The notes beneath the pieces were generated by a model. That model was not told the DNA's origin, ran no database searches, and saw only the letters and a program-made list of their open reading frames with translations. A stretch of DNA of 64,000 bases, taken from Hydrogenophaga pseudoflava. GTDB taxonomy: Bacteria > Pseudomonadota > Gammaproteobacteria > Burkholderiales > Burkholderiaceae_C. This document shows positions 12,943 to 28,877 of this stretch, one piece after another; within the stretch, counting starts at the first letter, position 1, and each line of letters begins with the position of its first letter. The DNA is taken from contig NZ_JAVHJP010000003.1 of assembly GCF_031020795.1 (NCBI RefSeq), positions 55,408-119,407 of the forward strand, read 5' to 3'. The position numbers and the translations under genes were made by a program.

Positions 12943-14217
12943 TCAAGCCGTGTGAACCCGCGCCACCAACCGGTCGTCGCCGAGCACGATCAGTGCAAAC
13001 AGCAGTTCGTCCAGCGAATCCGCCTGCGCGGTCTTGCGCGCCAGCAGCGGCGTGGCCTTCGGGTTGAGCACCACGAAGTCGGCCTCGTGCCCTGGCGTGA
13101 GGTTGCCCACCACGCCGGCCAGACCCAGGGCCTGGGCGGCGCCGGCCGTGTGCTGCCACCAGAGCTGGCCGGGCGTGAGGCTCAGACCCGGCTTGGTATG
13201 GCCTTCACGGCCCACGTAGTAGGCCGCCAGCATGGTGTGGAAGGGCGAGAAACTGGTGCCACCACCCACGTCGCTGGCCAGTCCATAGCGCATGCCGGCC
13301 GCGTCGGCGGCGGCGTAGTCGAAGAAACCGCTGCCCAGGAACAGATTGCTGGTGGGGCTGACGGCGGCCACGGCGCCGGTCTCTCGCATCAGGACGCGGT
13401 CGTGAGCGTCCAGGTGGATGCAGTGTGCGTAGACCGCGCGCTCGCGCAGCAGGCCGAAATCACCGTACACCCCCAGGTAGCTGCGCGCCTGCGGGTAGAG
13501 CTCGGCCACCCACCGCACCTCGTCGCGGTTCTCGGCCACGTGCGACTGGATCCAGACATCGCTGTATCTCGCGGCCAGTTCGCCGGCGCCGCGCAGCTGC
13601 TCGTCGGTGCTGGTGGGGGCAAACCGCGGGGTGATGGCATAGCCCAGCCGGTCCACGCCGTGCCAGCGGCGGATCAGGTCTTCGGTGTCGACCAGGCTCT
13701 GCTCGGTCAGGTCCCGCACGCCGTCGGGGCTGTGGCGGTCCTGCAGCACCTTGCCTGTGATGAAGCGCAGACCACGCGCTTGCGCGGCCTCGAACGCGGC
13801 GTCCACCGACGCAGTGTGGGATGTGGCGAAGGTCAGCGCGGTGGTCACGCCGTGGCGCGCCAGCTCGTCGAAGAAGAAGTCCGCCACGCCGCGGGCGTAG
13901 GCCTTGTCGGCGAAGCGGCTCTCGTGCGGGAAGGTGTAGTTCTCGAGCCAGGGCAGCAGGCCCGCGGCGGGCGCACCGATCACGTCGGTCTGCGGGTAGT
14001 GCACGTGCAGGTCGACAAATCCCGGGGCGATCAGGTACCCGCGCAGGTCTTCCACCGCCACGCCTGCGAAGCGGTCGATCAGCGCGTCGTGGCTGCCGGC
14101 GGCGCGCACCACGCGGCGTCCGCTGGCGTCGGGGCCGACCACCAGCAGGCCATCGCTGTCGTACAGCGGCTGGCCATGGTCATCGAATCGCAGGAGGGCG
14201 GCGCGGTAGGCTTTCAT
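12943..14217 (-). CDS. guaD: Guanine deaminase
   Basis: This 424-residue zinc amidohydrolase converts guanine to xanthine, feeding xanthine dehydrogenase. Metal-binding motifs are in order: HVHYPQ (the HxH pair in GFVDLHVHYPQTD), SHVAENRDE, AHCIHLD and the final Asp in ASDVGGGTS. The DVGGGTSFS segment is characteristic of guanine deaminase rather than of other ATZ/TRZ-type hydrolases. It is downstream of a BMP-type binding protein on the same strand and part of a purine locus reaching to 28877. Cytosolic; no signal sequence. Confidence 0.94.
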   Translation of the reverse strand: MKAYRAALLRFDDHGQPLYDSDGLLVVGPDASGRRVVRAAGSHDALIDRFAGVAVEDLRGYLIAPGFVDLHVHYPQTDVIGAPAAGLLPWLENYTFPHESRFADKAYARGVADFFFDELARHGVTTALTFATSHTASVDAAFEAAQARGLRFITGKVLQDRHSPDGVRDLTEQSLVDTEDLIRRWHGVDRLGYAITPRFAPTSTDEQLRGAGELAARYSDVWIQSHVAENRDEVRWVAELYPQARSYLGVYGDFGLLRERAVYAHCIHLDAHDRVLMRETGAVAAVSPTSNLFLGSGFFDYAAADAAGMRYGLASDVGGGTSFSPFHTMLAAYYVGREGHTKPGLSLTPGQLWWQHTAGAAQALGLAGVVGNLTPGHEADFVVLNPKATPLLARKTAQADSLDELLFALIVLGDDRLVARVHTA

Positions 14218-14282: not shown

Positions 14283-15356
14283 TCAGCGTGGCAGTTTCGT
14301 CGCCACGCCCTCGACCAGCCAGTTCATGCCCAGGATGGCGCTGTCGTCCAGTGCCTGACCGGCGGCGATCACCGTCTTGCCCTCGTTGTCCTTCACGCCG
14401 GCCTTGCCGCCGCTGAACACCGGCAGCTGGCCCGCCGCCATGTCCTTCTGGCGTGCCAGCACCTCGGTCTGCACGGCGGCCGGGACCTTGCTGCCGAAGC
14501 TGTCGACGCGGATCATTCCCTCGCGCACCCCGCCCCAGACTTGGGCGCTCTTCCAGCTGCCATCCGCCACCGCCTTGACGCGGCGGGTGTAGTAGTCGCC
14601 CCACTGGTGGGTGACGGCGGCCACCTGCGCGTCCGGCGCGACCTTGCGCATGTCGGAGTGGTAGGCCACGGCCAGTTTGCCGCGCTCCTGCGCGGCCACC
14701 ATGACGGCGTTGGAGCCGGTGTGGAAGGCCAGCACCTCGGCGCCCTGGTTCATCAGCGTCATGGCCGCGTCGCGCTCGCGCGGCGGGTTGAACCATTCGC
14801 CCAGGAACACCACGCGCACGGTGGCGTTCGGATTCACAGAGCGCATGCCAAGGGTGTACGCATTGATGCCCTGCAGAACCTCGGGAATCGGGAAGCCCGC
14901 CACATAACCGGCCTGCGTGGCCATGCGGCCGGCGGCGATGCCGGCCAGGTAACGCCCCTCGTAGTAGCGCGCATTGGACGCGGCCACGTTGGGTGCGGTC
15001 TTGTAGCCGGTGACCGATTCGAACTTCACGTTGGGAAACTCGCGCGCCACCTTGAGCGTGGGCTCCATGTAGCCAAAGCTGGGCGTGAAGATGATCTGGT
15101 TCCCCTGCATCGCCAGGTCGCGGATCACGCGCTCGGCGTCCGGGCCTTCGGCCACGTTCTCGACGTAGCTGGTCTTGACCTGGCCGGGCAGCGCGGCTTC
15201 GACCGCCAGGCGGCCCTGGTCGTGCTGGCGCACCCAGCCGGCGTCGGTCAGCGGCGCGACATAGACGAACGCGGCCTTGACCGGCGTCGTCGATTGGGCA
15301 AAAACGGGGGAAAAAAAACAGGCGGCCGCGAACGCGGCAGCGAGGTTTTTGTACAT
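14283..15356 (-). CDS. BMP-family ABC substrate-binding protein (second copy)
   Basis: This 357-residue periplasmic binding protein begins with a classical signal peptide (cleavage likely after FSPVFA) and no lipobox. It contains the BMP/PnrA-like fold stretches AFVYVAPLTDAGWVRQHDQGR, FGYMEPTLKVA and YEGRYLAGIAAG. Family members bind purine nucleosides or nucleobases. It is clearly paralogous to the lipoprotein at 19261-20415, which belongs to the complete importer; this copy has no permease beside it and probably shares that importer with another ligand preference. It lies after a terminator (15385-15419) and upstream of guaD, so it likely has its own promoter and is co-expressed with guanine deaminase. 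Confidence 0.9.
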   Translation of the reverse strand: MYKNLAAAFAAACFFSPVFAQSTTPVKAAFVYVAPLTDAGWVRQHDQGRLAVEAALPGQVKTSYVENVAEGPDAERVIRDLAMQGNQIIFTPSFGYMEPTLKVAREFPNVKFESVTGYKTAPNVAASNARYYEGRYLAGIAAGRMATQAGYVAGFPIPEVLQGINAYTLGMRSVNPNATVRVVFLGEWFNPPRERDAAMTLMNQGAEVLAFHTGSNAVMVAAQERGKLAVAYHSDMRKVAPDAQVAAVTHQWGDYYTRRVKAVADGSWKSAQVWGGVREGMIRVDSFGSKVPAAVQTEVLARQKDMAAGQLPVFSGGKAGVKDNEGKTVIAAGQALDDSAILGMNWLVEGVATKLPR

Positions 15357-17045: not shown

Positions 17046-18053
17046 TCAGGCGGCGCAGCAGGCGCTGATGCGATCAAACATTTCCCGCTTTCGTTGCTCG
17101 GAGACGAAGCTGGCCTCCACGCTGTTGCGCGCCAGCTGGGCCACATCCTCGCGGCCGAGGCCCAGGGCCTGCACCGTCTGTTCGAAGTTGGCGTTCATGT
17201 AGCCGCCGAAATAGGCCGGGTCGTCCGAATTGACCGTTGCACACAGGCCCGCGTCCAGCATCTTCTTGAGCGGGTGGTCGCGCAGGTCGTCCACCACGCA
17301 GAGCTTGAGGTTGGAGAGCGGACACACCGTCAGCGGCATCCGCGTGTGGGCCAGCTCGGCCATGAGCAGCGGGTCCGCCAGCGCGGCCACGCCATGGTCG
17401 ATGCGCTGCACCTTGAGCAGGTCGATGGCCTGCCACATGTACTCGGGCGGCCCTTCCTCGCCGGCGTGCGCCACGAGCTTCAGGCCCAGCTCGCGGCAGC
17501 GCGCGAACACGCGCTCGAATTTCTCGGGAGGGTGCCCGACTTCGCTCGAATCCAGCCCGACGCCGATGAAGTGCTCCTGGTACGGCAGCGCCGCTTCCAG
17601 CGTGGCGAAGGCGTCCTCCTCGCTCAGGTGGCGCAGGAAGCACAGGATCAGGGCCGAGCTGATGCCCAGTTCACTCTGCGCTTTCTTGCAGGCACCCGAC
17701 AGGCCCTCGATCACCGACGCCATGGGCACGCCGCGCGCGGTGTGGGTCTGCGGATCGAAGAACAGCTCGGCGTGGATCACGTTGTCGGCCCGGGCACGCA
17801 GGAAGTAGGCCCAGGCCATGTCATGGAAGTCCTGCGGCTGCAGCAGCACGCTGGCCCCGGCGTAGTAGATGTCCAGGAAACTCTGCAGGTCGGTGAAGGC
17901 GTAGGCCGCGCGCAGCGCCTCCACGCTCGGGTAGGCCAGCGGCACAGCGTTTCGCTTCGCAAGTTCAAAGATCAGCTCGGGTTCGAGCGAGCCCTCGATG
18001 TGGATGTGCAGTTCGGCCTTGGGGATGGCCCGGGCGAGTTCGATGGCGTTCAT
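17046..18053 (-). CDS. Adenine/adenosine deaminase (Add family)
   Basis: This 335-residue zinc hydrolase deaminates adenosine or adenine. Motifs are HIHIEGS (metal HxH), HAGEEG (catalytic Glu), IDHG and NSDDPAYF (metal Asp). The opening IPKAELHIHIEGSLEPELIFELA is closer to the bacterial adenine deaminases of the Add fold than to E. coli adenosine deaminase, so adenine to hypoxanthine is my preferred reaction. The start at 18051-18053 follows GAAAGGAAAA; the reading frame is open further upstream but there overlaps the Rieske gene. It is 10 bases downstream of that gene, so the two are co-transcribed. Confidence 0.88.
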   Translation of the reverse strand: MNAIELARAIPKAELHIHIEGSLEPELIFELAKRNAVPLAYPSVEALRAAYAFTDLQSFLDIYYAGASVLLQPQDFHDMAWAYFLRARADNVIHAELFFDPQTHTARGVPMASVIEGLSGACKKAQSELGISSALILCFLRHLSEEDAFATLEAALPYQEHFIGVGLDSSEVGHPPEKFERVFARCRELGLKLVAHAGEEGPPEYMWQAIDLLKVQRIDHGVAALADPLLMAELAHTRMPLTVCPLSNLKLCVVDDLRDHPLKKMLDAGLCATVNSDDPAYFGGYMNANFEQTVQALGLGREDVAQLARNSVEASFVSEQRKREMFDRISACCAA

Positions 18054-18063
18054 GGTTTTCCTT

Positions 18064-19131
18064 TCAGCAGACACCGAGCGCGACGCCGGTGCGGGCCAGA
18101 TAACGGCGGTAGGCGCTGGACATGCGGTCGGCTGGGCCGTGCACTTCGGCAATCGCACCATCCTTGCCGATGGGCAGGCGCCGGGGCTGTTGCGATTCCA
18201 CGATGGGCTTGTCCTGTCCGAACACCTCGTCCTGGAAAGCACGCAGCTCTTCGTCGTCGCTCAGGTCGCCCAGCGTGGCCATGGCGAACCAGGCGGTGCA
18301 GGCCTCGGGGCCGTCGGGCCGGATGAAGAGTGCAATCGCATTGCTGACCGTGTCGCCCTCGGCCGCATCCTTGCGCAGGATGGCCGCGAACGGGTGCGGC
18401 ACTTCGTAGCGGTAGGCCACCCAGCCGCCCTCTTCAGCGCCCGCATAGCCCTTGGGCTGCCAAGCCTTGCATTCGCGCGCGTGCACGCCGTCGGCGTCTT
18501 CGTCCACCCGGCCGGTGTCCACCTGGGCGTGGCTGCGCGCGCCCAGCCAGCCTTCGTGCACGAAGCCGAAGTGGCTCAGGTCCAGGAAGTTCTCCACCAG
18601 CCGGGGCGCGCTGGTCTCCACCGTGTAGGGGCCGCAGATCACCTGCCGCCACAGCGGGTCGCCCCAGGGCTCGAACGCGGGCGGAGACGACAAAGAGGCG
18701 GGCAGCTGCGACAGGTCCGGCCGCTCCAGCCGCACCCACACCAGGCCATGGCATTCCTGCGCCTCGAACACCTGGGCGCAGTGCGCCTTGGGTGGCTCGA
18801 AGGCCGGTGCCGCCGGCACGTGCACGCAGCGCCCCACGGACACCGGCGCACCGTGGTGGCCCTGCGCCGCGGCACCATCGCCCGCGAACTGCCAGCCGTG
18901 GTAGGGGCACTCCAGCCGCGCGCCGTGCAGGTGCGTGAGCACCCGCCCCAGCGACAGCCTCGCGCCCCGGTGCGGACAGCGGTCTGCCCAGGCGTGCACC
19001 ACGCCGGGCTGGCCCTCGTGGCCGTGCTCGCGCCACAGGACCACGTCCTGCCCCAGCAGCGACACGGCCACCGGCGCGTCCCGCAGGTGCATGCCTGCGA
19101 TGACCGGGTGCCAGAGTTGTCTTTCGATCAC
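18064..19131 (-). CDS. Rieske non-haem iron oxygenase, alpha subunit
   Basis: This 355-residue protein has an N-terminal Rieske [2Fe-2S] domain (CPHRG followed 17 residues later by CPYHGW) and a mononuclear iron site of the form N-x2-D-x2-H-x4-H (ENFLDLSHFGFVH). It would hydroxylate or demethylate an organic substrate with O2, taking electrons from a separate reductase that is not in this window. Size and layout match single-component-alpha oxygenases such as VanA and the methylxanthine N-demethylases NdmA/NdmB. Its place between a purine importer and an adenine deaminase suggests a purine-type substrate; this is inference. The GTG at 19129-19131 behind GGAGG is the start, as the neighbouring ATG is followed at once by a stop. 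Confidence 0.88.
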   Translation of the reverse strand: MIERQLWHPVIAGMHLRDAPVAVSLLGQDVVLWREHGHEGQPGVVHAWADRCPHRGARLSLGRVLTHLHGARLECPYHGWQFAGDGAAAQGHHGAPVSVGRCVHVPAAPAFEPPKAHCAQVFEAQECHGLVWVRLERPDLSQLPASLSSPPAFEPWGDPLWRQVICGPYTVETSAPRLVENFLDLSHFGFVHEGWLGARSHAQVDTGRVDEDADGVHARECKAWQPKGYAGAEEGGWVAYRYEVPHPFAAILRKDAAEGDTVSNAIALFIRPDGPEACTAWFAMATLGDLSDDEELRAFQDEVFGQDKPIVESQQPRRLPIGKDGAIAEVHGPADRMSSAYRRYLARTGVALGVC

Positions 19132-19143
19132 ATGACCTCCAAG

Positions 19144-19172
19144 AAAAAAAGCCGCTGCGGGTGCAGCGGCTT
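19144..19172 (-). terminator. Rho-independent terminator between the BMP and Rieske genes
   Basis: On the minus strand AAGCCGCTGC pairs with GCAGCGGCTT around a 4-base loop and is followed by TTTTTTTC. It ends about 10 bases before the Rieske gene's ribosome-binding site, so the Rieske-deaminase pair is transcribed either by read-through or from a promoter overlapping the hairpin. Confidence 0.9.
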
Positions 19173-19215
19173 TCGGCCAGGGCACCGCAGGTCCGGCTTC
19201 GCCGGCCTGCAGGTG

Positions 19216-19260: not shown

Positions 19261-20415
19261 TCAGTTCGGCAGCTTGCCTTCGACACCCTTGACGTAGAAC
19301 TTGATGCCGCCGAGGAACTTGTCGTCCGCCACAGCGTCCTTGGCCAGCACTTCCTTGCCGTCCTGGCCCACGATCGGGCCCTTCCAGATGGAGAAGGAAC
19401 CGTCCTTCAGGCCGGCCTTGATGGTGTCGATCTTGGCCTTGGCCTCGGCCGGCACGTCTTCGGCGATGGAGACCATGTCGATCGCGCCTTCCTTGTGGCC
19501 CCACCACACGCCACCCGTGCTCCAGGTGCCTTCCAGCGCGTCCTTGACGGCCTTCTTGTAGTACGGCCCCCAGTTGATGACGGCGGAACCCAGGTGGGCC
19601 TTGGGACCGTAGGCGGTCATGTCGGAATCCCAGCCGAAGGCCCGCTTGCCCATCTTCTCGGCGGTCTGCAGCACGGCCGACGAGTCGGTGTTCTGCATCA
19701 GCACGTCGGCACCGCCGTTGATCAGCGAGGTGGCGGCTTCGGTTTCCTTCGGCGGATCGAACCAGCCATTGACCCAGACCACCTTGGTCTTGACCTTGGG
19801 GTTCACCGACTGCGCGCCCAGCGTGAAGCTGTTGATGTTGCGGATCACTTCGGGGATTGGAATCGAGGCCACCACACCCAGCGTGTTGGACTTGGTCATG
19901 GAACCGGCGATCACGCCGGCCATGTAGGCACCCTCGTAGGTGCGGCTGTCGTAGGTGCGCATGTTCTCGGCCGTCTTGTAGCCGGTGGCGTGCTCGAACT
20001 TCACGTCCTTGAAGTCGGGCGCGACCTTGAGCATGGGCTCCATGTAGCCGAAGGTGGTGCCGAAGATCAGCTTGTTGCCCTGGCCGGCCAGGTCGCGCAG
20101 CACGCGCTCGGCGTCGGCGCTTTCGGGCACGTTCTCGACAAAGCTGGTCACGACCTTGTCACCGAACTCGGCCTCGACCGCCTTGCGGCCGTTGTCGTGG
20201 GCGAAGGTCCAGCCGCCGTCACCGACCGGACCGACGTAGGCGAAGGCCACCTTCAGCGGCTCGGCCTTGGGCGCTTCGGCGGCGGCCGGTGCCGGCGCGG
20301 GCGCTGCGGCCGGGGCGGCCGCCTCTTCCTTCTTGCCGCAGCCGATCAGGGCCGCGCTGGCCACGGCCGTCAGGGCCGCCAGCTTGATCAGGGAACGCTT
20401 GTTCAGGTCGGTCAT
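19261..20415 (-). CDS. BMP-family purine nucleoside/nucleobase-binding lipoprotein
   Basis: This 384-residue lipoprotein is the solute-binding part of the neighbouring importer. The signal ends in a lipobox (LIGC, lipidated Cys near residue 26) and is followed by an alanine/proline-rich linker. The mature domain has BMP/PnrA signatures: AFAYVGPVGDGGWTFAHDNG, FGTTFGYMEPMLKVA and YEGAYMAGVIAGSM. Relatives bind inosine, guanosine or other purine nucleosides; in this locus with guanine and adenine deaminases and xanthine dehydrogenase, purine bases are equally likely. It follows two permease genes and an ATPase gene on the same strand, and a terminator closes the unit. Confidence 0.92.
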   Translation of the reverse strand: MTDLNKRSLIKLAALTAVASAALIGCGKKEEAAAPAAAPAPAPAAAEAPKAEPLKVAFAYVGPVGDGGWTFAHDNGRKAVEAEFGDKVVTSFVENVPESADAERVLRDLAGQGNKLIFGTTFGYMEPMLKVAPDFKDVKFEHATGYKTAENMRTYDSRTYEGAYMAGVIAGSMTKSNTLGVVASIPIPEVIRNINSFTLGAQSVNPKVKTKVVWVNGWFDPPKETEAATSLINGGADVLMQNTDSSAVLQTAEKMGKRAFGWDSDMTAYGPKAHLGSAVINWGPYYKKAVKDALEGTWSTGGVWWGHKEGAIDMVSIAEDVPAEAKAKIDTIKAGLKDGSFSIWKGPIVGQDGKEVLAKDAVADDKFLGGIKFYVKGVEGKLPN

Positions 20416-20481: not shown

Positions 20482-21402
20482 TCAGGAGCCCGGGTAGAAC
20501 GGCTTGCCGATCGAGGCGGGCATGTTCACGCGGATCCAGGTCGGGTTGCGCGAAATCAGCACCAGCACGGCGATGGTGGCGACGTAAGGCATCATGGTCA
20601 GGAACTGGCTCGGCACGTTGACGCCCATGCCCTGCAGGTGGAACTGCAGCATGGTCACGCCACCGAACAGGTAGGCACCAAGCAACACGCGTGCCGGGCG
20701 CCAGGTGGCGAACGTCGTCAGCGCCAGCGCGATCCAGCCCTTGCCGGCGATCATGCCCTCCACCCACAGCGGGGTGTAGACGGTGGACACATAGGCCCCG
20801 GCGAGGCCGCACAGCGCCCCGCCGGCCATGACCGACATCAGGCGGATGCGACGCACCGGGTAGCCCAGCGCGTGCGCCGATTCAGGGCTCTCGCCCACGC
20901 TGCGCAGCACCAGACCGGCACGGGTTCGGAACAGGAACCAGATCAGCCCGAACATCAGGCCCACGCAGACATAGACCATGGGGTGGTGCCGGAACAGCGC
21001 GTTGCCGAGGAAGGGGATGTCGGACAGCAGCGGGATGGCGAACTGGCCCTGCTCGGGCAGCTTGGCCTGCACATACGAGGTGCCGGCGAAGGCCGAGAAG
21101 CCGGCGCCGAACAGGGACAGCGCCAGCCCGGTGGCGTACTGGTTGGTGTTGAGCCAGATCACCAGACCGCCGAAGATGGCGGCCAGCAGCGCGCCGGCGG
21201 CCATGCCGGCGGCGAAGCCCGCCACCGTGCTGCCGGTGTGCACCACGGTGGCGAAACCGGCCAGGGCGGCGCAGAGCATCATGCCCTCGGCGCCCAGGTT
21301 GACGATGCCGGCCTTCTCGTTGATCAGCAGGCCCAGCGAGGCGATGGCCAGCACGGTGCCGGCGTTGAGCGAGGCGGCGATGAGGAGTGCGGTGGATTCC
21401 AT
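20482..21402 (-). CDS. Purine ABC transporter permease (NupQ-like)
   Basis: This 306-residue permease of the BMP-associated (RbsC/BPD_transp_2) family has about nine hydrophobic segments and the family stretch GLLINEKAGIVNLGAEGMMLCAALAGF near residues 23-50. It pairs with the permease encoded immediately upstream (2-base gap) to form the heterodimeric membrane channel. The ATG at 21400-21402 is chosen because it follows the upstream stop and gives the normal length; longer readings run through the upstream gene in the wrong frame. Confidence 0.92.
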   Translation of the reverse strand: MESTALLIAASLNAGTVLAIASLGLLINEKAGIVNLGAEGMMLCAALAGFATVVHTGSTVAGFAAGMAAGALLAAIFGGLVIWLNTNQYATGLALSLFGAGFSAFAGTSYVQAKLPEQGQFAIPLLSDIPFLGNALFRHHPMVYVCVGLMFGLIWFLFRTRAGLVLRSVGESPESAHALGYPVRRIRLMSVMAGGALCGLAGAYVSTVYTPLWVEGMIAGKGWIALALTTFATWRPARVLLGAYLFGGVTMLQFHLQGMGVNVPSQFLTMMPYVATIAVLVLISRNPTWIRVNMPASIGKPFYPGS

Positions 21403-21404
21403 GA

Positions 21405-22460
21405 TCACTTCTTCCAGACGACGCGGTACGCAATGAGGGTGTCGCAGGCCAGCAGGGCGAACAGCAGCAGGCCCTGGAACACGCCGGTGATGGACTTGGG
21501 CAGGCCCAGGCGCGACTGCGCGAGCTCGCCGCCGATGTAGAACATGCTCATCAGGATGGCCGAGAACACGATGCCCACCGGGTGCAGGCGGCCGACGAAG
21601 GCCACGATGATGGCGGCGAAGCCGTAGCCCGCCGGCACATAGGGCGTGAGCTGGCCGATGGGCCCGGCCACCTCCAGCGCGCCCGCCAGCCCGGCCATGC
21701 CACCGGAAGTGAGCAGCGCGATCCACAGCGCCTTGCGCGAGGAGAAGCCCGCATAGCGCGCCGCCGCCGGCGCCAGACCGCCCACCTGCTGGGCAAAGCC
21801 CGAATAGGTGCGGAACAGGAACACCCACACCGCCGCGACACCCGCCAGCGCCAGCAGCAGGCCGATGTTCAGGCGCGAACCCTGCACCAGCCTGGGAATC
21901 TGCGTGACCGACTCGAAGGTCTTGGTCTGCGGGAAGTTGTAGCCCATAGGGTCTTTCCAGGGGCCATAGACCAGGTAGTTGAGCACCTGCACCGCCACGT
22001 AGACCAGCATCAGACTGACCAGGATTTCGTTGGCATTGAAGCGGTCGCGCAGCAGCGCCGTGATGCCGGCCCAGAGCATGCCGCCCAGCACACCGGCCAC
22101 GATGATGGCCGGCACGATCCAGGCGCCCGTTTCCCCGGTGGCGGTGAGCGCCACGCCGGACGCGAAGATGGCGCCGATGAGGTACTGGCCTTCGGCGCCG
22201 ATGTTCCAGACGTTGGAGCGGAAACACACCGCCAACCCCAGCGCGATGATCAGCAGCGGCGCGGCCTTGACCATCAGCTCGGACAGCGCGTAGGTGCTTT
22301 TGACCGGCTCCCAGAAGAACACCTGCAGGCCGCGCACAGGGTCCTTGCCCAGGGCGGCGAACAGGATCACGCCGATGACCACGGTGATGGCCAGCGCCAG
22401 CAGCGGCGAGGCATAACCCCAGCGCGCCGACGGCTGGGGACGGACTTCAAGCCGCAGCAT
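21405..22460 (-). CDS. Purine ABC transporter permease (NupP-like)
   Basis: This 351-residue permease is the longer partner of the pair, with an N-terminal helix followed by a periplasmic loop and eight or more transmembrane segments. GLAVCFRSNVWNIGAEGQYLIGAIFASG (about residues 75-103) is the counterpart of the NLGAEG motif in the other permease. Its ATG overlaps the end of the ATPase gene by 14 bases, so translation is coupled. Order ATPase-permease-permease-binding protein is that of the bacterial nucleoside importers. Confidence 0.92.
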   Translation of the reverse strand: MLRLEVRPQPSARWGYASPLLALAITVVIGVILFAALGKDPVRGLQVFFWEPVKSTYALSELMVKAAPLLIIALGLAVCFRSNVWNIGAEGQYLIGAIFASGVALTATGETGAWIVPAIIVAGVLGGMLWAGITALLRDRFNANEILVSLMLVYVAVQVLNYLVYGPWKDPMGYNFPQTKTFESVTQIPRLVQGSRLNIGLLLALAGVAAVWVFLFRTYSGFAQQVGGLAPAAARYAGFSSRKALWIALLTSGGMAGLAGALEVAGPIGQLTPYVPAGYGFAAIIVAFVGRLHPVGIVFSAILMSMFYIGGELAQSRLGLPKSITGVFQGLLLFALLACDTLIAYRVVWKK

Positions 22461-23991
22461 GGGCGGACTCCTTGTTCTTGTGGTGGTGTGCGGCGTCGTC
22501 CCACAGGCCCGACATCCATTCGCCGATGCGCTCGACGGTGGCGTCGGCGCGGTCGATGCTGGGAGAGAGCCGCCCCTTGGCGATCACGTGCAGGCGGTCG
22601 CTGATTTCGAACAGCTCGTCCAGCTCCTCGCTGACCACCAGCACCGCGCAGCCTGCGTCGCGCAGCCTGAGGATCTCCCCGCGGATCTGCGCCGAGGCGC
22701 CCACGTCCACGCCCCACGTGGGCTGGCTGACGATGAGCAGCTTCGGCTGGGCCTCGATCTCGCGGCCGACGATGAACTTCTGCAGGTTGCCGCCCGAGAG
22801 CGACTTGGCCGCGGCACCCGGCCCGTTGGCCTTGACCTTGTAGCGCGCGATGATGTCTTCGGCCTGGGCCTTGAGTGCGCCCAGCTTCAGCCAGCCGCCC
22901 GCGCCCACCGCGTCGCGGCGCGAGAGCAGCAGGTTCTGCGCCAGCGACAGCGTGGGCACCGCGCCACGGCCCAGGCGCTCTTCGGGCACGAAGTGCAGGC
23001 CCAGGGCGCGCCGGCGGCCCGGCGGCAGCCGCGAGGCGTCCTGCCCCAGCACGCTGATGCTGCCGGCCGGCGCGCGCCGGTCCTCGCCCGACAGCGCAAC
23101 GAGGAGCTCGCCCTGGCCATTGCCCGACACGCCGGCGATGCCCACCACCTCGCCCGCGCGCACGGTCAGTGCGATGTTGGCCAGGTCGGTGCCGAAGGGG
23201 TCTTCGCTGGCCAGCGTGAGGTTCTGCACCTGCAGCACCGCAGCGCCGGCGTTGAGCGCGCGGGCCTCCAGCGCGGGCGGCTCGGCGCCGATCATCAGGC
23301 GCGAGAGCGAGGCGTTGCTTTCGTTCTGCGGGTTGCACACGCCCGTGACCTGGCCGCCACGCAGCACCGTGCAGGCGGTGCACAACTCGCGGATCTCGTG
23401 CAGCTTGTGGCTGATGTAGAGAATGGAGCAGCCTTCGGACGCCAGTTTTTTGAGCACCACGAAGAGCTTTTCCACCGCCTGCGGCGTCAGCACCGAGGTG
23501 GGTTCGTCCAGGATCAGCAGCTGCGGGCCGGTCAGCAGGGCGCGGATGATTTCCACCCGCTGCATCTCGCCCACGCTGAGTGTGTGCACCGGGCGCTTGG
23601 GGTCGATGTCCAGGCCGTATTCGGCGGCCGTGGCGTCGATGCTGGCCGTCACCTCGTTGAGCGTGAGCGCCTTGTCCAGGCCCAGCCAGACATTCTCGGC
23701 GACGGTGAGGGTGTCGAACAGGCTGAAATGCTGGAACACCATGCTGATGCCCAGCGCCCGCGCTTCCTGCGGGTTGCGGATGTGCACCGGCTGGCCGTTG
23801 AACATCACTGCGCCCTCGTCGGGTTTGACCGAGCCGTAGATGATCTTCATCAGCGTGGACTTGCCGGCGCCGTTCTCGCCCAGCACGGCGTGCACCTCGC
23901 CGGGGGCGACAGAGAGCGACACATTGCTGTTGGCGACCACGCCAGGGTAGCGCTTGGTGATGCCGGTCAGCTGCAGTCGGGGGGTCGTCAA
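22447..23991 (-). CDS. Purine ABC transporter ATPase (NupO-like, two NBDs)
   Basis: This 514-residue protein has two fused nucleotide-binding domains, as is standard for nucleoside and ribose-type importers. The first has Walker [10 protein letters not shown] near residue 37, signature LSVGEMQR and Walker B LLILDEPTS. The second is degenerate at Walker A (GVSGNGQGE) and has signature LSGGNLQK, with LIVSQPTWGVD in place of a standard Walker B. The start is a TTG at 23989-23991, six bases after a strong AAGGAG. It lies 31 bases after the LysR gene stop on the same strand, so the regulator could be co-transcribed. Confidence 0.93.
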   Translation of the reverse strand: MTTPRLQLTGITKRYPGVVANSNVSLSVAPGEVHAVLGENGAGKSTLMKIIYGSVKPDEGAVMFNGQPVHIRNPQEARALGISMVFQHFSLFDTLTVAENVWLGLDKALTLNEVTASIDATAAEYGLDIDPKRPVHTLSVGEMQRVEIIRALLTGPQLLILDEPTSVLTPQAVEKLFVVLKKLASEGCSILYISHKLHEIRELCTACTVLRGGQVTGVCNPQNESNASLSRLMIGAEPPALEARALNAGAAVLQVQNLTLASEDPFGTDLANIALTVRAGEVVGIAGVSGNGQGELLVALSGEDRRAPAGSISVLGQDASRLPPGRRRALGLHFVPEERLGRGAVPTLSLAQNLLLSRRDAVGAGGWLKLGALKAQAEDIIARYKVKANGPGAAAKSLSGGNLQKFIVGREIEAQPKLLIVSQPTWGVDVGASAQIRGEILRLRDAGCAVLVVSEELDELFEISDRLHVIAKGRLSPSIDRADATVERIGEWMSGLWDDAAHHHKNKESAHAAA

Positions 23992-24022: not shown

Positions 24023-24976
24023 TCAGGCCGCGGCGGCCTCGGGTTCGGCGCGGCGCAGCGAGGCCGCCACGGTCTTGATCTGCTCGCGCAGCCAGCGGCC
24101 CGCGCTGGAGGCGTGGGTGCGCTCGTGCCAGAGCTGGTAGTACATCATTCGCGGGAACTCCACCGGACAGGGCAGCACCTGCACCGGCAGCGCACCGACG
24201 TAGCGCTCGGCGTACTGGCGGCCGGTGGTCAGCACCAGCAGGGTGCCCGCCACCATGGCCGGAATCAGGCCGAAGTGCGGGCAGCGCGCGGTGATGTTGC
24301 GCACCAGACCCTGGCTGGCCAGGTGTTCGTCGATGAAGCCGCGCGCGCCGGGGTGGGTGGGCGTGGGGGCGATGTGTTCGGCCGCCAGCCAGGCCTCGGT
24401 GTCCCAGCCGCGGCGCGCGGCCGGATGGTGGCTGGCCACCAGGCAGACCACCTCGTCGCCGAACAGGCGGCCCAGGTGCAGCTCCTGCGGCGGCTTGGGC
24501 CAGTTGCCGATCACCACGTCGTAGTGGCCCTGGGCCAGGTGGGCGCGGTAGTCGGCGTCGGCCGACAGCGGGTGGATATCGATGCCGCAGTTCGGTGCCG
24601 AGGTCTTGACCTGCGTCACCAGCTGGGGCAGGAACAGCGGGTCCAGGTAATCGCTGGCGGCCAGGCTGAAGGTCTGGCGCGCGGTGGCCGGGTCGAAGGC
24701 GCGGGCGTCGGAGAACAGCATCTCGGCGCTGCGCAGGATCTCGGCCGCGGGTTCGATCATGCGCAGCCCCGCCACGGTGGGCACCATGCTGGCGCCCGAG
24801 CGCACCAGAAGGGGGTCTCCCGCCAGTTCGCGCAGGCGCTTGAGCGAGGCGCTGACCGCCGGCTGGTACATGCCCAGCCGCAGCGCCGCCCGCGACACGC
24901 TGCGTTCCGTCAGGACGGTGTGCAGCACGCGGATCAGGTGCAGGTCAATCTTGTCGAACATGGAGACGTATTTCAT
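24023..24976 (-). CDS. LysR-type regulator of the purine locus
   Basis: This 317-residue LysR protein has an N-terminal helix-turn-helix (ERSVSRAALRLGMYQPAVSASL, about residues 24-45) and an effector domain of the NodD/PA2220-like type. It stands between the purine importer operon (same strand) and divergent xdhA, which strongly suggests control of both. The start is the ATG at 24974-24976; an ATG five codons later is possible. Ligand unknown; urate, xanthine or hypoxanthine are natural candidates. The C-terminus is an alanine/glutamate-rich tail. Confidence 0.85.
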   Translation of the reverse strand: MKYVSMFDKIDLHLIRVLHTVLTERSVSRAALRLGMYQPAVSASLKRLRELAGDPLLVRSGASMVPTVAGLRMIEPAAEILRSAEMLFSDARAFDPATARQTFSLAASDYLDPLFLPQLVTQVKTSAPNCGIDIHPLSADADYRAHLAQGHYDVVIGNWPKPPQELHLGRLFGDEVVCLVASHHPAARRGWDTEAWLAAEHIAPTPTHPGARGFIDEHLASQGLVRNITARCPHFGLIPAMVAGTLLVLTTGRQYAERYVGALPVQVLPCPVEFPRMMYYQLWHERTHASSAGRWLREQIKTVAASLRRAEPEAAAA

Positions 24977-25071: not shown

Positions 25072-26571
25072 ATGAATGCAAAAAAACCCGGGCAAACCCT
25101 GAGATTCCTGCGCCGCGGCGCCCCCGTGACCCTGCCGGACGTGCCTTCAGACCGCACCCTGCTGGAGGTGCTGCGCGAAGACCTGCACCTGAGCGCCACC
25201 AAGGAAGGCTGCGGCGAAGGCGACTGCGGCGCCTGTACGGTGGTGCTGGGCGAGGCGGTGAACGGCCGCCTCACCTACAAGGCCATCAACAGCTGCATCC
25301 GGCTCGCGCACTCGGTGGACGGCATGGCGGTGTTCACGGCCGAAGACATCAGCGCCCCCTCCGGCGAGCTGCATCCCGCCCAGGAGGCGATGGTGCAGTG
25401 CCACGGATCGCAATGTGGCTTCTGCACGCCGGGCTTCGTGATGAGCCTGTTCGGCATGTACCAGAACGCGAAGGATGGAAAGGGCATCACCCGCGAACTG
25501 GCGCAGGCCGACCTCTCGGGCAACCTCTGCCGCTGCACGGGCTACCGGCCCATCCTGGACGCCGCGCAGCAGATGGGCGCCCTGCCCCTGCCCGCCGGCT
25601 GTGGGGTGGACGAGGCTGCCACGGTGACCGCGCTGCATGAACTGAAAAAGAAGCCCGCAGCGGACACCCCCTACCTGCGCCCCACCACGCTGTCCGCCCT
25701 GCTGCAGGCCCGCGCGGCGCACCCGCAGGCCCAGGTCGTGGCCGGCACCACCGACGTCGGACTATGGGTCACCAAGATGCACAAGCACTTTCCGCAGGTG
25801 CTGGACGTGACCGCCGCGCGCGAGCTGCAGCGCGTGGAAAGCTACCCGCACCACATCGCCATCGGTGCAGCGGTGACGCTGACCGAGGCCTTCGCAGCGC
25901 TGGTCAAGGAACGCCCCCAGCTGGTGAATTTCAGCCAGCGATTCGCCGGACTGCCGGTGCGCAACTCGGGCACGCTGGGCGGCAACGTGGCCAACGGATC
26001 ACCTATCGGCGATTCCATGCCGCTGCTGATCGCGCTGGGTGCCAGCGTGGTGCTGATGCGCTGGAAGAAAAGCAGGGCCGGCGGCGAGATCGCCCACCGC
26101 GAACTGCGACTGGAAGACCTCTACACCGGCTACCGCACCAACGTCATGCGGCCGGACGAGCTGCTGTGCTGGATCAAGGTGCCGCAGCCGACCGGGCACG
26201 CGCTGGAAAAGGTCTACAAGATCAGCAAGCGCTTTGACGACGACATTTCGGCGGTGTGTCTCGCCATCCAGATGACGGTGAAAGGCGGTGTGGTGCAGCA
26301 GATTTCCATCGGCGCCGGCGGCGTGGCCGCCACGCCCGCCCGCGCACGCCAGACCGAAGCCGCCCTGCTCGGCCAGGCCTGGAACGAGGACACGGTGATG
26401 GCCGCCACCGCTGCGCTGCGTGCCGAGTTCCAGCCCATCAGCGACATGCGTGCCAGCGCCGGCTACCGCCAGACCGTGCTGGGCAACCTGCTGCGCCGCT
26501 TCTGGCTGGAAAGCCAGGGGCAGCAGGCCATCAACCTGGAAAGCCTCAAGACCCTGGAGGCCCTGTCATGA
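25072..26571 (+). CDS. xdhA: Xanthine dehydrogenase small subunit (FeS and FAD)
   Basis: This 499-residue subunit carries the electron-transfer cofactors of xanthine dehydrogenase. The N-terminal plant-type [2Fe-2S] domain shows GCGEGDCGACTVV, the second [2Fe-2S] domain shows CGFCTPGF and NLCRCTGYRP, and the C-terminal half is the FAD-binding domain (GTTDVGLWVTK, NSGTLGGNVANGSPIGD). It oxidises hypoxanthine and xanthine to urate with XdhB, passing electrons to NAD+. The start is uncertain: ATGs at 25060 and 25072 are in frame and neither has a good ribosome-binding site; I chose the second because the domain starts shortly after. It overlaps xdhB by ATGA. Confidence 0.95.
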   Translation: MNAKKPGQTLRFLRRGAPVTLPDVPSDRTLLEVLREDLHLSATKEGCGEGDCGACTVVLGEAVNGRLTYKAINSCIRLAHSVDGMAVFTAEDISAPSGELHPAQEAMVQCHGSQCGFCTPGFVMSLFGMYQNAKDGKGITRELAQADLSGNLCRCTGYRPILDAAQQMGALPLPAGCGVDEAATVTALHELKKKPAADTPYLRPTTLSALLQARAAHPQAQVVAGTTDVGLWVTKMHKHFPQVLDVTAARELQRVESYPHHIAIGAAVTLTEAFAALVKERPQLVNFSQRFAGLPVRNSGTLGGNVANGSPIGDSMPLLIALGASVVLMRWKKSRAGGEIAHRELRLEDLYTGYRTNVMRPDELLCWIKVPQPTGHALEKVYKISKRFDDDISAVCLAIQMTVKGGVVQQISIGAGGVAATPARARQTEAALLGQAWNEDTVMAATAALRAEFQPISDMRASAGYRQTVLGNLLRRFWLESQGQQAINLESLKTLEALS

Positions 26572-28877
26572 ACGCACCGGATCTCAAACTCGTGGTGGAC
26601 AACACACCTGCAGCCACCGCGGCCGGCGTCTCGCGCTTCCACGAGAGCGCGAGGGCCCAGGTGGCCGGCGCCGCCACCTACATCGACGACATCCCCGAGG
26701 TGCGTGGCACCCTGCACGCGGCACCGGTGTGCTCGCCGGTGGCGCACGGGGTACTCAGGGGCATCGATGCCAGCGCCGCCCTGGCCGTGCCCGGTGTGCA
26801 CGCCTTCATCGGCCCGGACGACATCCCAGGCGACAAGGTCCTTGCCGCCTTCGCGCACGACGAGCCCGTCTTCGCCCAGGGCACGGTGCAGTTCCTCGGC
26901 CAGGTCGGCGGCCTGATCGTGGCCGACGACGTGATGACCGCCCGCCGCGCGGCCCGGCTGGTGAAGTGGGACATCGAGGCACTGGAGCCGGTGCTCACGC
27001 CGCAGCAGGCCCATGCAAAACAGAGCTACGTGCTGCCACCCGTCCATGTGACCCGCGGCGACGCAGCCTCCGCGCTGCAGCGCGCGCCGCACACGCTCGA
27101 AGGAGCGTTCGAGGTCGGCGGGCAGGAACATTTCTATCTGGAAGGCCAGATCGCCTACGTGCTGCCGCTGGAGCAGCAGCAGTGGTGGGTCTGGAGCAGC
27201 ACGCAACACCCGGGCGAGGTGCAGCACTGGGTCTCGCACGCGCTGGGCCTGGCCAACCACGCGGTCACGGTGGAATGCCGGCGCATGGGCGGCGGCTTCG
27301 GCGGCAAGGAAACCCAGGCCGGGCATCTGGCGGTCTGGGCCGCGGTCGCGGCCAACAAACTGCGCCGGCCGGTCAAGCTGCGGCTGGACCGCGACGACGA
27401 CTTCATGGTCACCGGCAAGCGCCATCCGTTCGCGTACACCTACCGCGTCGGCTTCGACGACCGCGGGCGCCTGTGCGGGCTGGAACTGGACATGCTGGCC
27501 AACTGCGGCTTTTCCGCCGACCTCTCGGGCCCGGTGGCGGACCGCGCCATCTTCCACGCCGACAACGCCTACTTCCTCGAAGACGTCGCCATCCATTCCT
27601 ACCGCTGCAAGACCAACACGCAGAGCCACACCGCCTACCGCGGATTCGGCGGGCCGCAGGGCGTGGTCGTCATCGAACGCATCATGGGCGACATCGCTCG
27701 CCATCTCGGCATCGACGCGCTCGACGTGCGGCTGGCCAACCTGTACGGCATCGAGGACCGCAACGTCACCCACTACCAGATGGCGGTGGAGGACAACATC
27801 CTCGAACCGCTGATGACGCAGCTGGCGCGCACCAGCGGCTACCGCGAGCGCGCCGAGCAGATCGCGCAGTGGAACGCCGGCAGCCCCGTCATCAAGCGCG
27901 GCATCGCGCTCACGCCGGTCAAGTTCGGTATCAGCTTCACCGCCACGCTGTTCAACCAGGCGGGTGCGCTGGTGCATGTGTACACCGACGGCAGCGTGCA
28001 GGTGAACCACGGCGGCACCGAAATGGGCCAGGGCCTGAACACCAAGGTCGCGGCCATCGTGGCCGACGAACTGGGCGTGCCGTTCGAGCGCGTGCTCTCC
28101 ACCGCCAGCGACACCAGCAAGGTGCCCAACGCCAGCGCCACCGCCGCCAGCAGCGGCACCGATCTGAACGGCCGCGCGGCCCAGTTCGCCGCGCGCCAGG
28201 TGCGCCAGAACCTCGCGGCCTTCGTCGCCGGGCAGGATGGCGTGGGCGCGGGTGCGGTGCGTTTTGAAGGTGGGCAGGTCGTCACCGAGAAGACCACGCG
28301 CACCTGGGAGTCGGTGGTGGGTGCGGCTTATGCCAACCGCATCCAGCTCTGGAGCGACGGCTTCTACCGCACGCCCAAGATCCACTACGACAAGGTCACC
28401 ATGCTGGGCCGGCCGTTCTACTACTTCGCCTATGGCGCGGCGGTGACCGAGGTCGCCATCGACACGCTGACCGGCGAGAGCCGCGTGCTCAAGGTGGACA
28501 TCCTGCACGACGTGGGCCGCAGCATCAACCCGGCCATCGACATCGGCCAGATCGAGGGCGGTTTCGTGCAGGGCATGGGCTGGCTCACCACCGAGCAACT
28601 GGTGTGGAATGGCAAGGGCTACCTGCAGACCCATGCGCCCAGCACCTACAAGATCCCGGCCACGGGCGACATCCCGGCCCACTTCAAGGTCGATCTCTGG
28701 CCCGAGCCCAACCGCGAGGACAACGTGCACGGCAGCAAGGCCGTGGGCGAGCCGCCGTTCATGCTGGCCATCAGCGTGTTCGAGGCGCTGCGCGACGCGG
28801 TGGCCCAGGCCGGCGGGCGGCCCGAGGCCATGAACGCGCCGGCCACGGCCGAAGAGGTGCTCAACAGCCTGGCCTGA
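26568..28877 (+). CDS. xdhB: Xanthine dehydrogenase large subunit (molybdenum)
   Basis: This 769-residue subunit holds the molybdopterin cofactor. Characteristic segments are GGQEHFYLEGQ, MGGGFGGKETQ, YRGFGGPQG, NHGGTEMGQGLNTK and the C-terminal GSKAVGEPPFMLAISVFEA, which contains the catalytic glutamate. ATG at 26568 overlaps the xdhA stop. In many beta- and gammaproteobacteria an xdhC maturation gene follows; here the next gene is an AraC regulator on the opposite strand, so XdhC must be encoded elsewhere. Closest alternative families (CO or aldehyde dehydrogenases) differ in subunit arrangement. Confidence 0.95.
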   Translation: MNAPDLKLVVDNTPAATAAGVSRFHESARAQVAGAATYIDDIPEVRGTLHAAPVCSPVAHGVLRGIDASAALAVPGVHAFIGPDDIPGDKVLAAFAHDEPVFAQGTVQFLGQVGGLIVADDVMTARRAARLVKWDIEALEPVLTPQQAHAKQSYVLPPVHVTRGDAASALQRAPHTLEGAFEVGGQEHFYLEGQIAYVLPLEQQQWWVWSSTQHPGEVQHWVSHALGLANHAVTVECRRMGGGFGGKETQAGHLAVWAAVAANKLRRPVKLRLDRDDDFMVTGKRHPFAYTYRVGFDDRGRLCGLELDMLANCGFSADLSGPVADRAIFHADNAYFLEDVAIHSYRCKTNTQSHTAYRGFGGPQGVVVIERIMGDIARHLGIDALDVRLANLYGIEDRNVTHYQMAVEDNILEPLMTQLARTSGYRERAEQIAQWNAGSPVIKRGIALTPVKFGISFTATLFNQAGALVHVYTDGSVQVNHGGTEMGQGLNTKVAAIVADELGVPFERVLSTASDTSKVPNASATAASSGTDLNGRAAQFAARQVRQNLAAFVAGQDGVGAGAVRFEGGQVVTEKTTRTWESVVGAAYANRIQLWSDGFYRTPKIHYDKVTMLGRPFYYFAYGAAVTEVAIDTLTGESRVLKVDILHDVGRSINPAIDIGQIEGGFVQGMGWLTTEQLVWNGKGYLQTHAPSTYKIPATGDIPAHFKVDLWPEPNREDNVHGSKAVGEPPFMLAISVFEALRDAVAQAGGRPEAMNAPATAEEVLNSLA

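Follow-up and report, generated by a model that had tools for sequence, protein, structure and literature searches.

A full-length Rieske oxygenase related to NdmC, and possibly a purine N-demethylase, occupies an optional position in a purine operon of Comamonadaceae

The minus-strand gene at positions 18064-19131 of the window (the whole 64,000-nucleotide stretch of Hydrogenophaga DNA analysed here) encodes a full-length Rieske oxygenase that is sister to the NdmC type of catalytic subunit and is located between the genes of a purine importer and an adenine deaminase. Action of this oxygenase on a purine base is well supported by gene linkage and by tree placement. The reading that we prefer, to which we assign a probability of about 0.42, is that the protein would be a full-length NdmC-like purine N-demethylase that feeds the purine operon in which it is encoded. 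Because its closest tested relative removes the N7 methyl group of 7-methylxanthine in the caffeine pathway, the oxygenase probably lets the soil and water bacteria that carry it use modified purines.

The gene starts with a GTG codon at position 19131, preceded by TTGGAGGTCAT, and its product contains both the Rieske [2Fe-2S] motif C52-x-H54 ... C75-xx-H78 (18898-18978, minus strand) and the mononuclear iron motif N181-F-L-D184-xx-H187-xxxx-H192 (18556-18591, minus strand). Both the Rieske (5.9e-17) and the VanA_C (2.6e-20) Pfam families are matched above their curated cut-offs, and with both metal motifs present the protein is a VanA-type alpha subunit of the Rieske non-heme iron oxygenases. 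Across 38 orthologs no change is seen at C52, H54, C75 and H78, at the iron ligands H187, H192 and D307, or at N181 and D184, and the AlphaFold2 model reaches a pLDDT of 90 and a pTM of 0.90, all of which bears out the 355-residue Rieske oxygenase with intact motifs proposed in an earlier note on this DNA. None of the named NCBIfam Rieske equivalogs is passed (best 39.8 bits versus a curated cut-off of 600). An extra loop, GDGAAAQGHHGAPVS, follows the Rieske motif (window 18835-18879, residues ~85-99); it is modelled with low confidence and is present only in close Hydrogenophaga relatives.

On the minus strand, from 24976 to 17046, the genes are arranged in the order LysR-type regulator (24023-24976), ABC ATPase (22447-23991), permease A (21405-22460), permease B (20482-21432), BMP-family binding protein (19261-20415), Rieske oxygenase and adenine deaminase (17046-18053). 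Upstream of this run lie the divergent, plus-strand genes of the xanthine dehydrogenase small (xdhA, 25072-26571, kept in related loci) and large (xdhB, 26568-28877) subunits, both named by reading their sequences, and downstream, again on the minus strand, lie a second BMP-family binding protein (14283-15356) and a guanine deaminase (12943-14217, profile score above cut-off). The placement described in the earlier note is correct: the end of the oxygenase gene is 10 bases from the ATG of the deaminase at 18053, and its start is just beyond the importer, which we measure as 129 bases past the binding-protein gene. No known riboswitch was matched in the locus with Rfam. The best PDB match of the deaminase is the sequence represented by 3ou8, 3pan, 3pao and 3pbm (PA0148, 2e-124), an enzyme that we take to deaminate adenine. 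The binding protein is nearest to AtzT and 3s99 (4e-112), and the positions that form the guanine site of AtzT are occupied by W69, T121, F122, E189, W218, N242 and D244, five of the seven being identical or aromatic-for-aromatic and the other two being T for S and D for N. Both of these relatives are binders of guanine/adenine; for AtzT the values are 0.11 µM with guanine and 2.5 µM with adenine (PMC6834077).

The oxygenase is common within its family. Among 300 Comamonadaceae genomes, 97 contain a match, and in about 80 the ortholog is complete or nearly so (identity ≥46%), with named loci in Hydrogenophaga, Variovorax, Ramlibacter, Comamonas, Delftia, Acidovorax, Rhodoferax, Polaromonas and others; at the same threshold no ortholog outside the family was present among 369 genomes drawn from the class. 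In the 80 named loci the deaminase gene is downstream of the oxygenase in 68 of 75 testable cases, within 400 bases in 63, and of 71 loci, 67 have the binding-protein gene upstream, 58 of them at no more than 500 bases. These counts ignore kinship among the genomes, although the pattern spans many genera. The unnamed loci show the same arrangement. Lack of conserved linkage to purine genes in relatives, which the earlier note named as evidence against a purine role, is thus not what the 63 of 75 close deaminase pairings show; the linkage is far above chance, old, and kept over dozens of genera. Control genomes of the family that lack the oxygenase (n = 40) possess the deaminase in 30 cases, and in 16 of these 30 the binding-protein gene directly precedes the deaminase gene in an unchanged operon order. 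Because the same operon is found in these relatives with the two neighbours joined, the oxygenase is an optional gene inserted at one point of the purine operon. Such an optional insertion fits an enzyme that would widen the range of purines used and not a core step, xanthine dehydrogenase and urate oxidase being already there. The urate oxidase PuuD occurs in all 50 tested genomes with the oxygenase, which therefore have a complete downstream purine pathway, versus 22 of 30 without it (Fisher p 0.0002, kinship ignored); HpxO scored above its cut-off in one genome without the oxygenase. A role of the oxygenase as the missing urate step is ruled out by the presence of PuuD in those 50 genomes.

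The spacer that separates the binding-protein gene from the oxygenase gene contains a hairpin resembling an intrinsic terminator with a T-run (19147-19174, minus strand), and similar hairpins occur in 43 of 63 related spacers that contain the oxygenase and in 9 of 16 that do not. Judged by its sequence, the hairpin is part of the end of the binding-protein gene, and this position suggests that the oxygenase and the deaminase may be expressed separately from the importer or at a lower level.

In a maximum likelihood tree built from 57 catalytic-domain rows under LG+G4, with 1000 ultrafast bootstraps, the group of the window oxygenase (support 97) is sister (99) to a clade formed by the NdmC-type subunits and one full-length protein, L060, also encoded beside a binding-protein gene; the window oxygenase falls beside the NdmC clade and not within it. 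The NdmC-type rows derive from the caffeine cluster of Paraburkholderia caffeinilytica, from plasmids of Pseudomonas, Klebsiella and Sinorhizobium, and from split gene pairs in Comamonadaceae. SxtT and GxtA form the next branch out, together with a cyanobacterial protein encoded behind a BMP importer, and HpxD and NdmA/NdmB form separate clades. Catalytic-domain identity is 39-41% to the NdmC types versus 27-30% to NdmA, NdmB, HpxD and SxtT. The deep rooting is uncertain because the outgroup is long, but the grouping of the window oxygenase with NdmC is independent of the rooting; a Rieske-domain tree built for the origin of the split N-terminal part gave supports too low for use. Structure comparison ranks the solved proteins as follows: the AlphaFold2 model best matches SxtT/GxtA (Z ~36, rmsd ~2.2; VIA), followed by NdmA (Z 32.6), NdmB (31.4), guaiacol demethylase (29.4) and dicamba monooxygenase (28.9), and a PDB sequence search returns SxtT/GxtA, NdmA, NdmB and dicamba monooxygenase in this same order. 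No NdmC chain is among these PDB matches, and PDB ranking alone therefore misses the nearest tested relative. A placement with aromatic-ring or chlorophyll-type oxygenases, which would have spoken against the earlier idea of an oxidative step on a purine, was not found. That idea is supported by the conserved purine-gene linkage and by the series of nearest tested relatives, NdmC, then NdmA/NdmB, HpxD and SxtT/GxtA.

The pocket residues follow the tree. Q225, P226, Y240, Y242, K254, Q300, F304, Q306 and D307 are identical in all rows of the window group and in nearly all NdmC-type rows. The lysine K254 (18370-18372, minus strand) is common to NdmC-type subunits and absent in NdmA (V), NdmB (I), HpxD (I) and SxtT, where it aligns with S230, a substrate contact (PMC7293229). 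Q300 and F304, encoded with the iron ligand D307 at 18211-18234 (minus strand), align with NdmA N282 and F286, two residues deduced here from the QL mutant chain and of which N282 is a specificity residue; Q300 also aligns with SxtT Y273. The PDB alignment rows for NdmA, NdmB and SxtT are without some terminal residues. The positions at which the oxygenase differs from NdmC include A175, P176, A223 and S313 and, within the pocket, W195 and F282. NdmA and NdmB, which act on purine alkaloids and which the earlier note took as its model, share with the window protein the full-length Rieske architecture, the fold (Z ~32) and the Q300/F304 match, but their separate clade and the V and I at the K254 position do not support them as the model.

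NdmC is the catalytic subunit of the NdmCDE complex and acts in the N7-demethylation of 7-methylxanthine; it is devoid of a Rieske domain and requires both the GST-like NdmE and NdmD, the latter with an extra Rieske domain (PMC4408171). The window oxygenase resembles NdmC and its homologues in tree position, pocket signature and the company of purine genes, but has an intact Rieske domain of its own and is accompanied by neither an NdmD-type reductase nor a GST-like NdmE, in its locus or in the related loci read. In the route that we infer, the protein would serve as oxygenase component of a Rieske monooxygenase. The AtzT-like importer would bring a purine base into the cell, and an unlinked reductase would donate electrons to the [2Fe-2S] cluster, from which they would reach the iron of an adjacent subunit within a predicted trimer. 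Activated O2 would then be used to hydroxylate an N-methyl or small N-alkyl group, which would be released as formaldehyde, leaving the freed base to the adenine or guanine deaminase and to xanthine dehydrogenase. Its descent from the NdmC branch would make a ring-nitrogen methyl group, N7 first, the likeliest target, as in 7-methylguanine or 7-methylxanthine, and N-demethylation with N7 as the first candidate site is tentatively proposed from the activity of the sister group. The absence of formaldehyde-removal genes, NdmD and NdmE from the locus counts against a demethylase. Moreover, descent does not fix the substrate, because the shared residues are clade-wide and SxtT and GxtA, within the same larger clade, have a different substrate; members from Mycetohabitans without any purine context have most of the shared pocket residues.

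Tight pairing with the adenine deaminase could point to an adenine derivative, and two other readings start from this neighbour. One, which we regard as unlikely, is that the enzyme hydroxylates a purine C-H bond, at C2 or C8 of adenine or another base, and leaves the product to the deaminase or xanthine dehydrogenase. The deaminase gene at 10 bases agrees with this, as does the fact that the nearest solved structures, SxtT and GxtA, are C-H hydroxylases, and HpxD provides a precedent for Rieske oxidation of a purine ring carbon (PMC7373994). However, the closest tested branch is a demethylase, and oxidation of hypoxanthine and xanthine at C2 and C8 is already provided by the xanthine dehydrogenase of the locus. 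SxtT and GxtA, which share the C-terminal GVC tail, lie outside the clade of the window group and NdmC and belong to other organisms and another pathway; four SxtT contacts (D239, Q226, S230 and Y273) are replaced by I266, A250, K254 and Q300, respectively, and SxtT R204 aligns with K227, a lysine as in GxtA. The other reading, somewhat less probable still, is N6-dealkylation of substituted adenines, such as N6-methyladenine or cytokinin-like bases, to give adenine for the deaminase, the tightest and most constant neighbour; against it stand the importer family's preference for guanine over adenine (PMC6834077) and the fact that an exocyclic amine is not a target of any tested relative in the tree.

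HpxD, which functions with HpxE as a molybdenum-independent xanthine hydroxylase, is likewise a Rieske protein of a purine catabolism cluster and is ~30% identical to the oxygenase, from which a role in hypoxanthine or xanthine hydroxylation under molybdenum shortage might be imagined. Such a role is very improbable given the separate clade and different pocket residues of HpxD, the lack of an adjacent HpxE, and the xdh genes adjacent in many oxygenase loci. It is also quite improbable that the protein is a non-purine enzyme that merely happens to be located in a purine operon, as the relatives from Mycetohabitans and Pantoea that sit among non-purine genes would allow, since dozens of genera retain its position and the more distant cyanobacterial relative is also encoded directly behind a BMP importer. 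The preferred N-demethylase reading can be extended to the rather speculative proposal that the group represents the unsplit ancestral form of NdmCDE, with a native housekeeping task in the recovery of methylated purine bases, e.g., 7-methylguanine from RNA turnover; no bacterial enzyme described for a 7-methylguanine-type catabolic step was found in the literature searched.

As already pointed out in the earlier note, no reductase partner is encoded nearby, and the additional genes read within related loci do not include one. Among the ORFs read in the gaps of these loci are those for a Yip1-like protein and an esterase, next to unrelated ones, but none for a hidden linked reductase. Elsewhere in the genome a NAD-binding reductase domain occurs at 11 loci, three or four of which adjoin other Rieske genes, and none of the 11 candidates is assignable to the oxygenase. 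The simplest assumption is that the oxygenase uses a shared reductase.

This work provides a testable function for a common and unnamed gene group of Comamonadaceae (Hydrogenophaga, Variovorax, Comamonas, Delftia, Acidovorax and others), on which nothing was found in a search of the literature available without subscription. Because the gene is naturally present in some strains and absent from others at one operon position, strains can be compared cleanly. Moreover, the oxygenase is a single-chain counterpart of NdmC, whose Rieske domain has moved to the reductase, and the origin of this split is therefore open to study.

Split NdmC-type oxygenases encoded by two adjacent genes, a stand-alone Rieske-domain protein of ~210-240 amino acids and a catalytic part of ~280, occur in at least nine loci (L045:6361-7868, L046, L047, L048, L050, L051, L054:7974-9623, L056:4326-5809 and L057), several of which adjoin BMP binding-protein genes; the L056 pair is followed by a GST gene. 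In these pairs the Rieske domain stands alone instead of being fused to the reductase as in NdmD, and they may represent a step between the full-length oxygenase and the NdmC/NdmD arrangement. A Leptolyngbya plasmid operon (L205:2297-7948) combines a Rieske oxygenase with a BMP binding protein, an ATPase and two permeases; this oxygenase is the tree row closest to SxtT/GxtA (67% support), which hints that SxtT and GxtA descended from purine-importer-linked enzymes. Finally, a conjugative plasmid of P. putida (L212:401-10114) carries a single cluster in which HpxO and an HpxD-like oxygenase occur together with an NdmC/NdmD/NdmE-like set.
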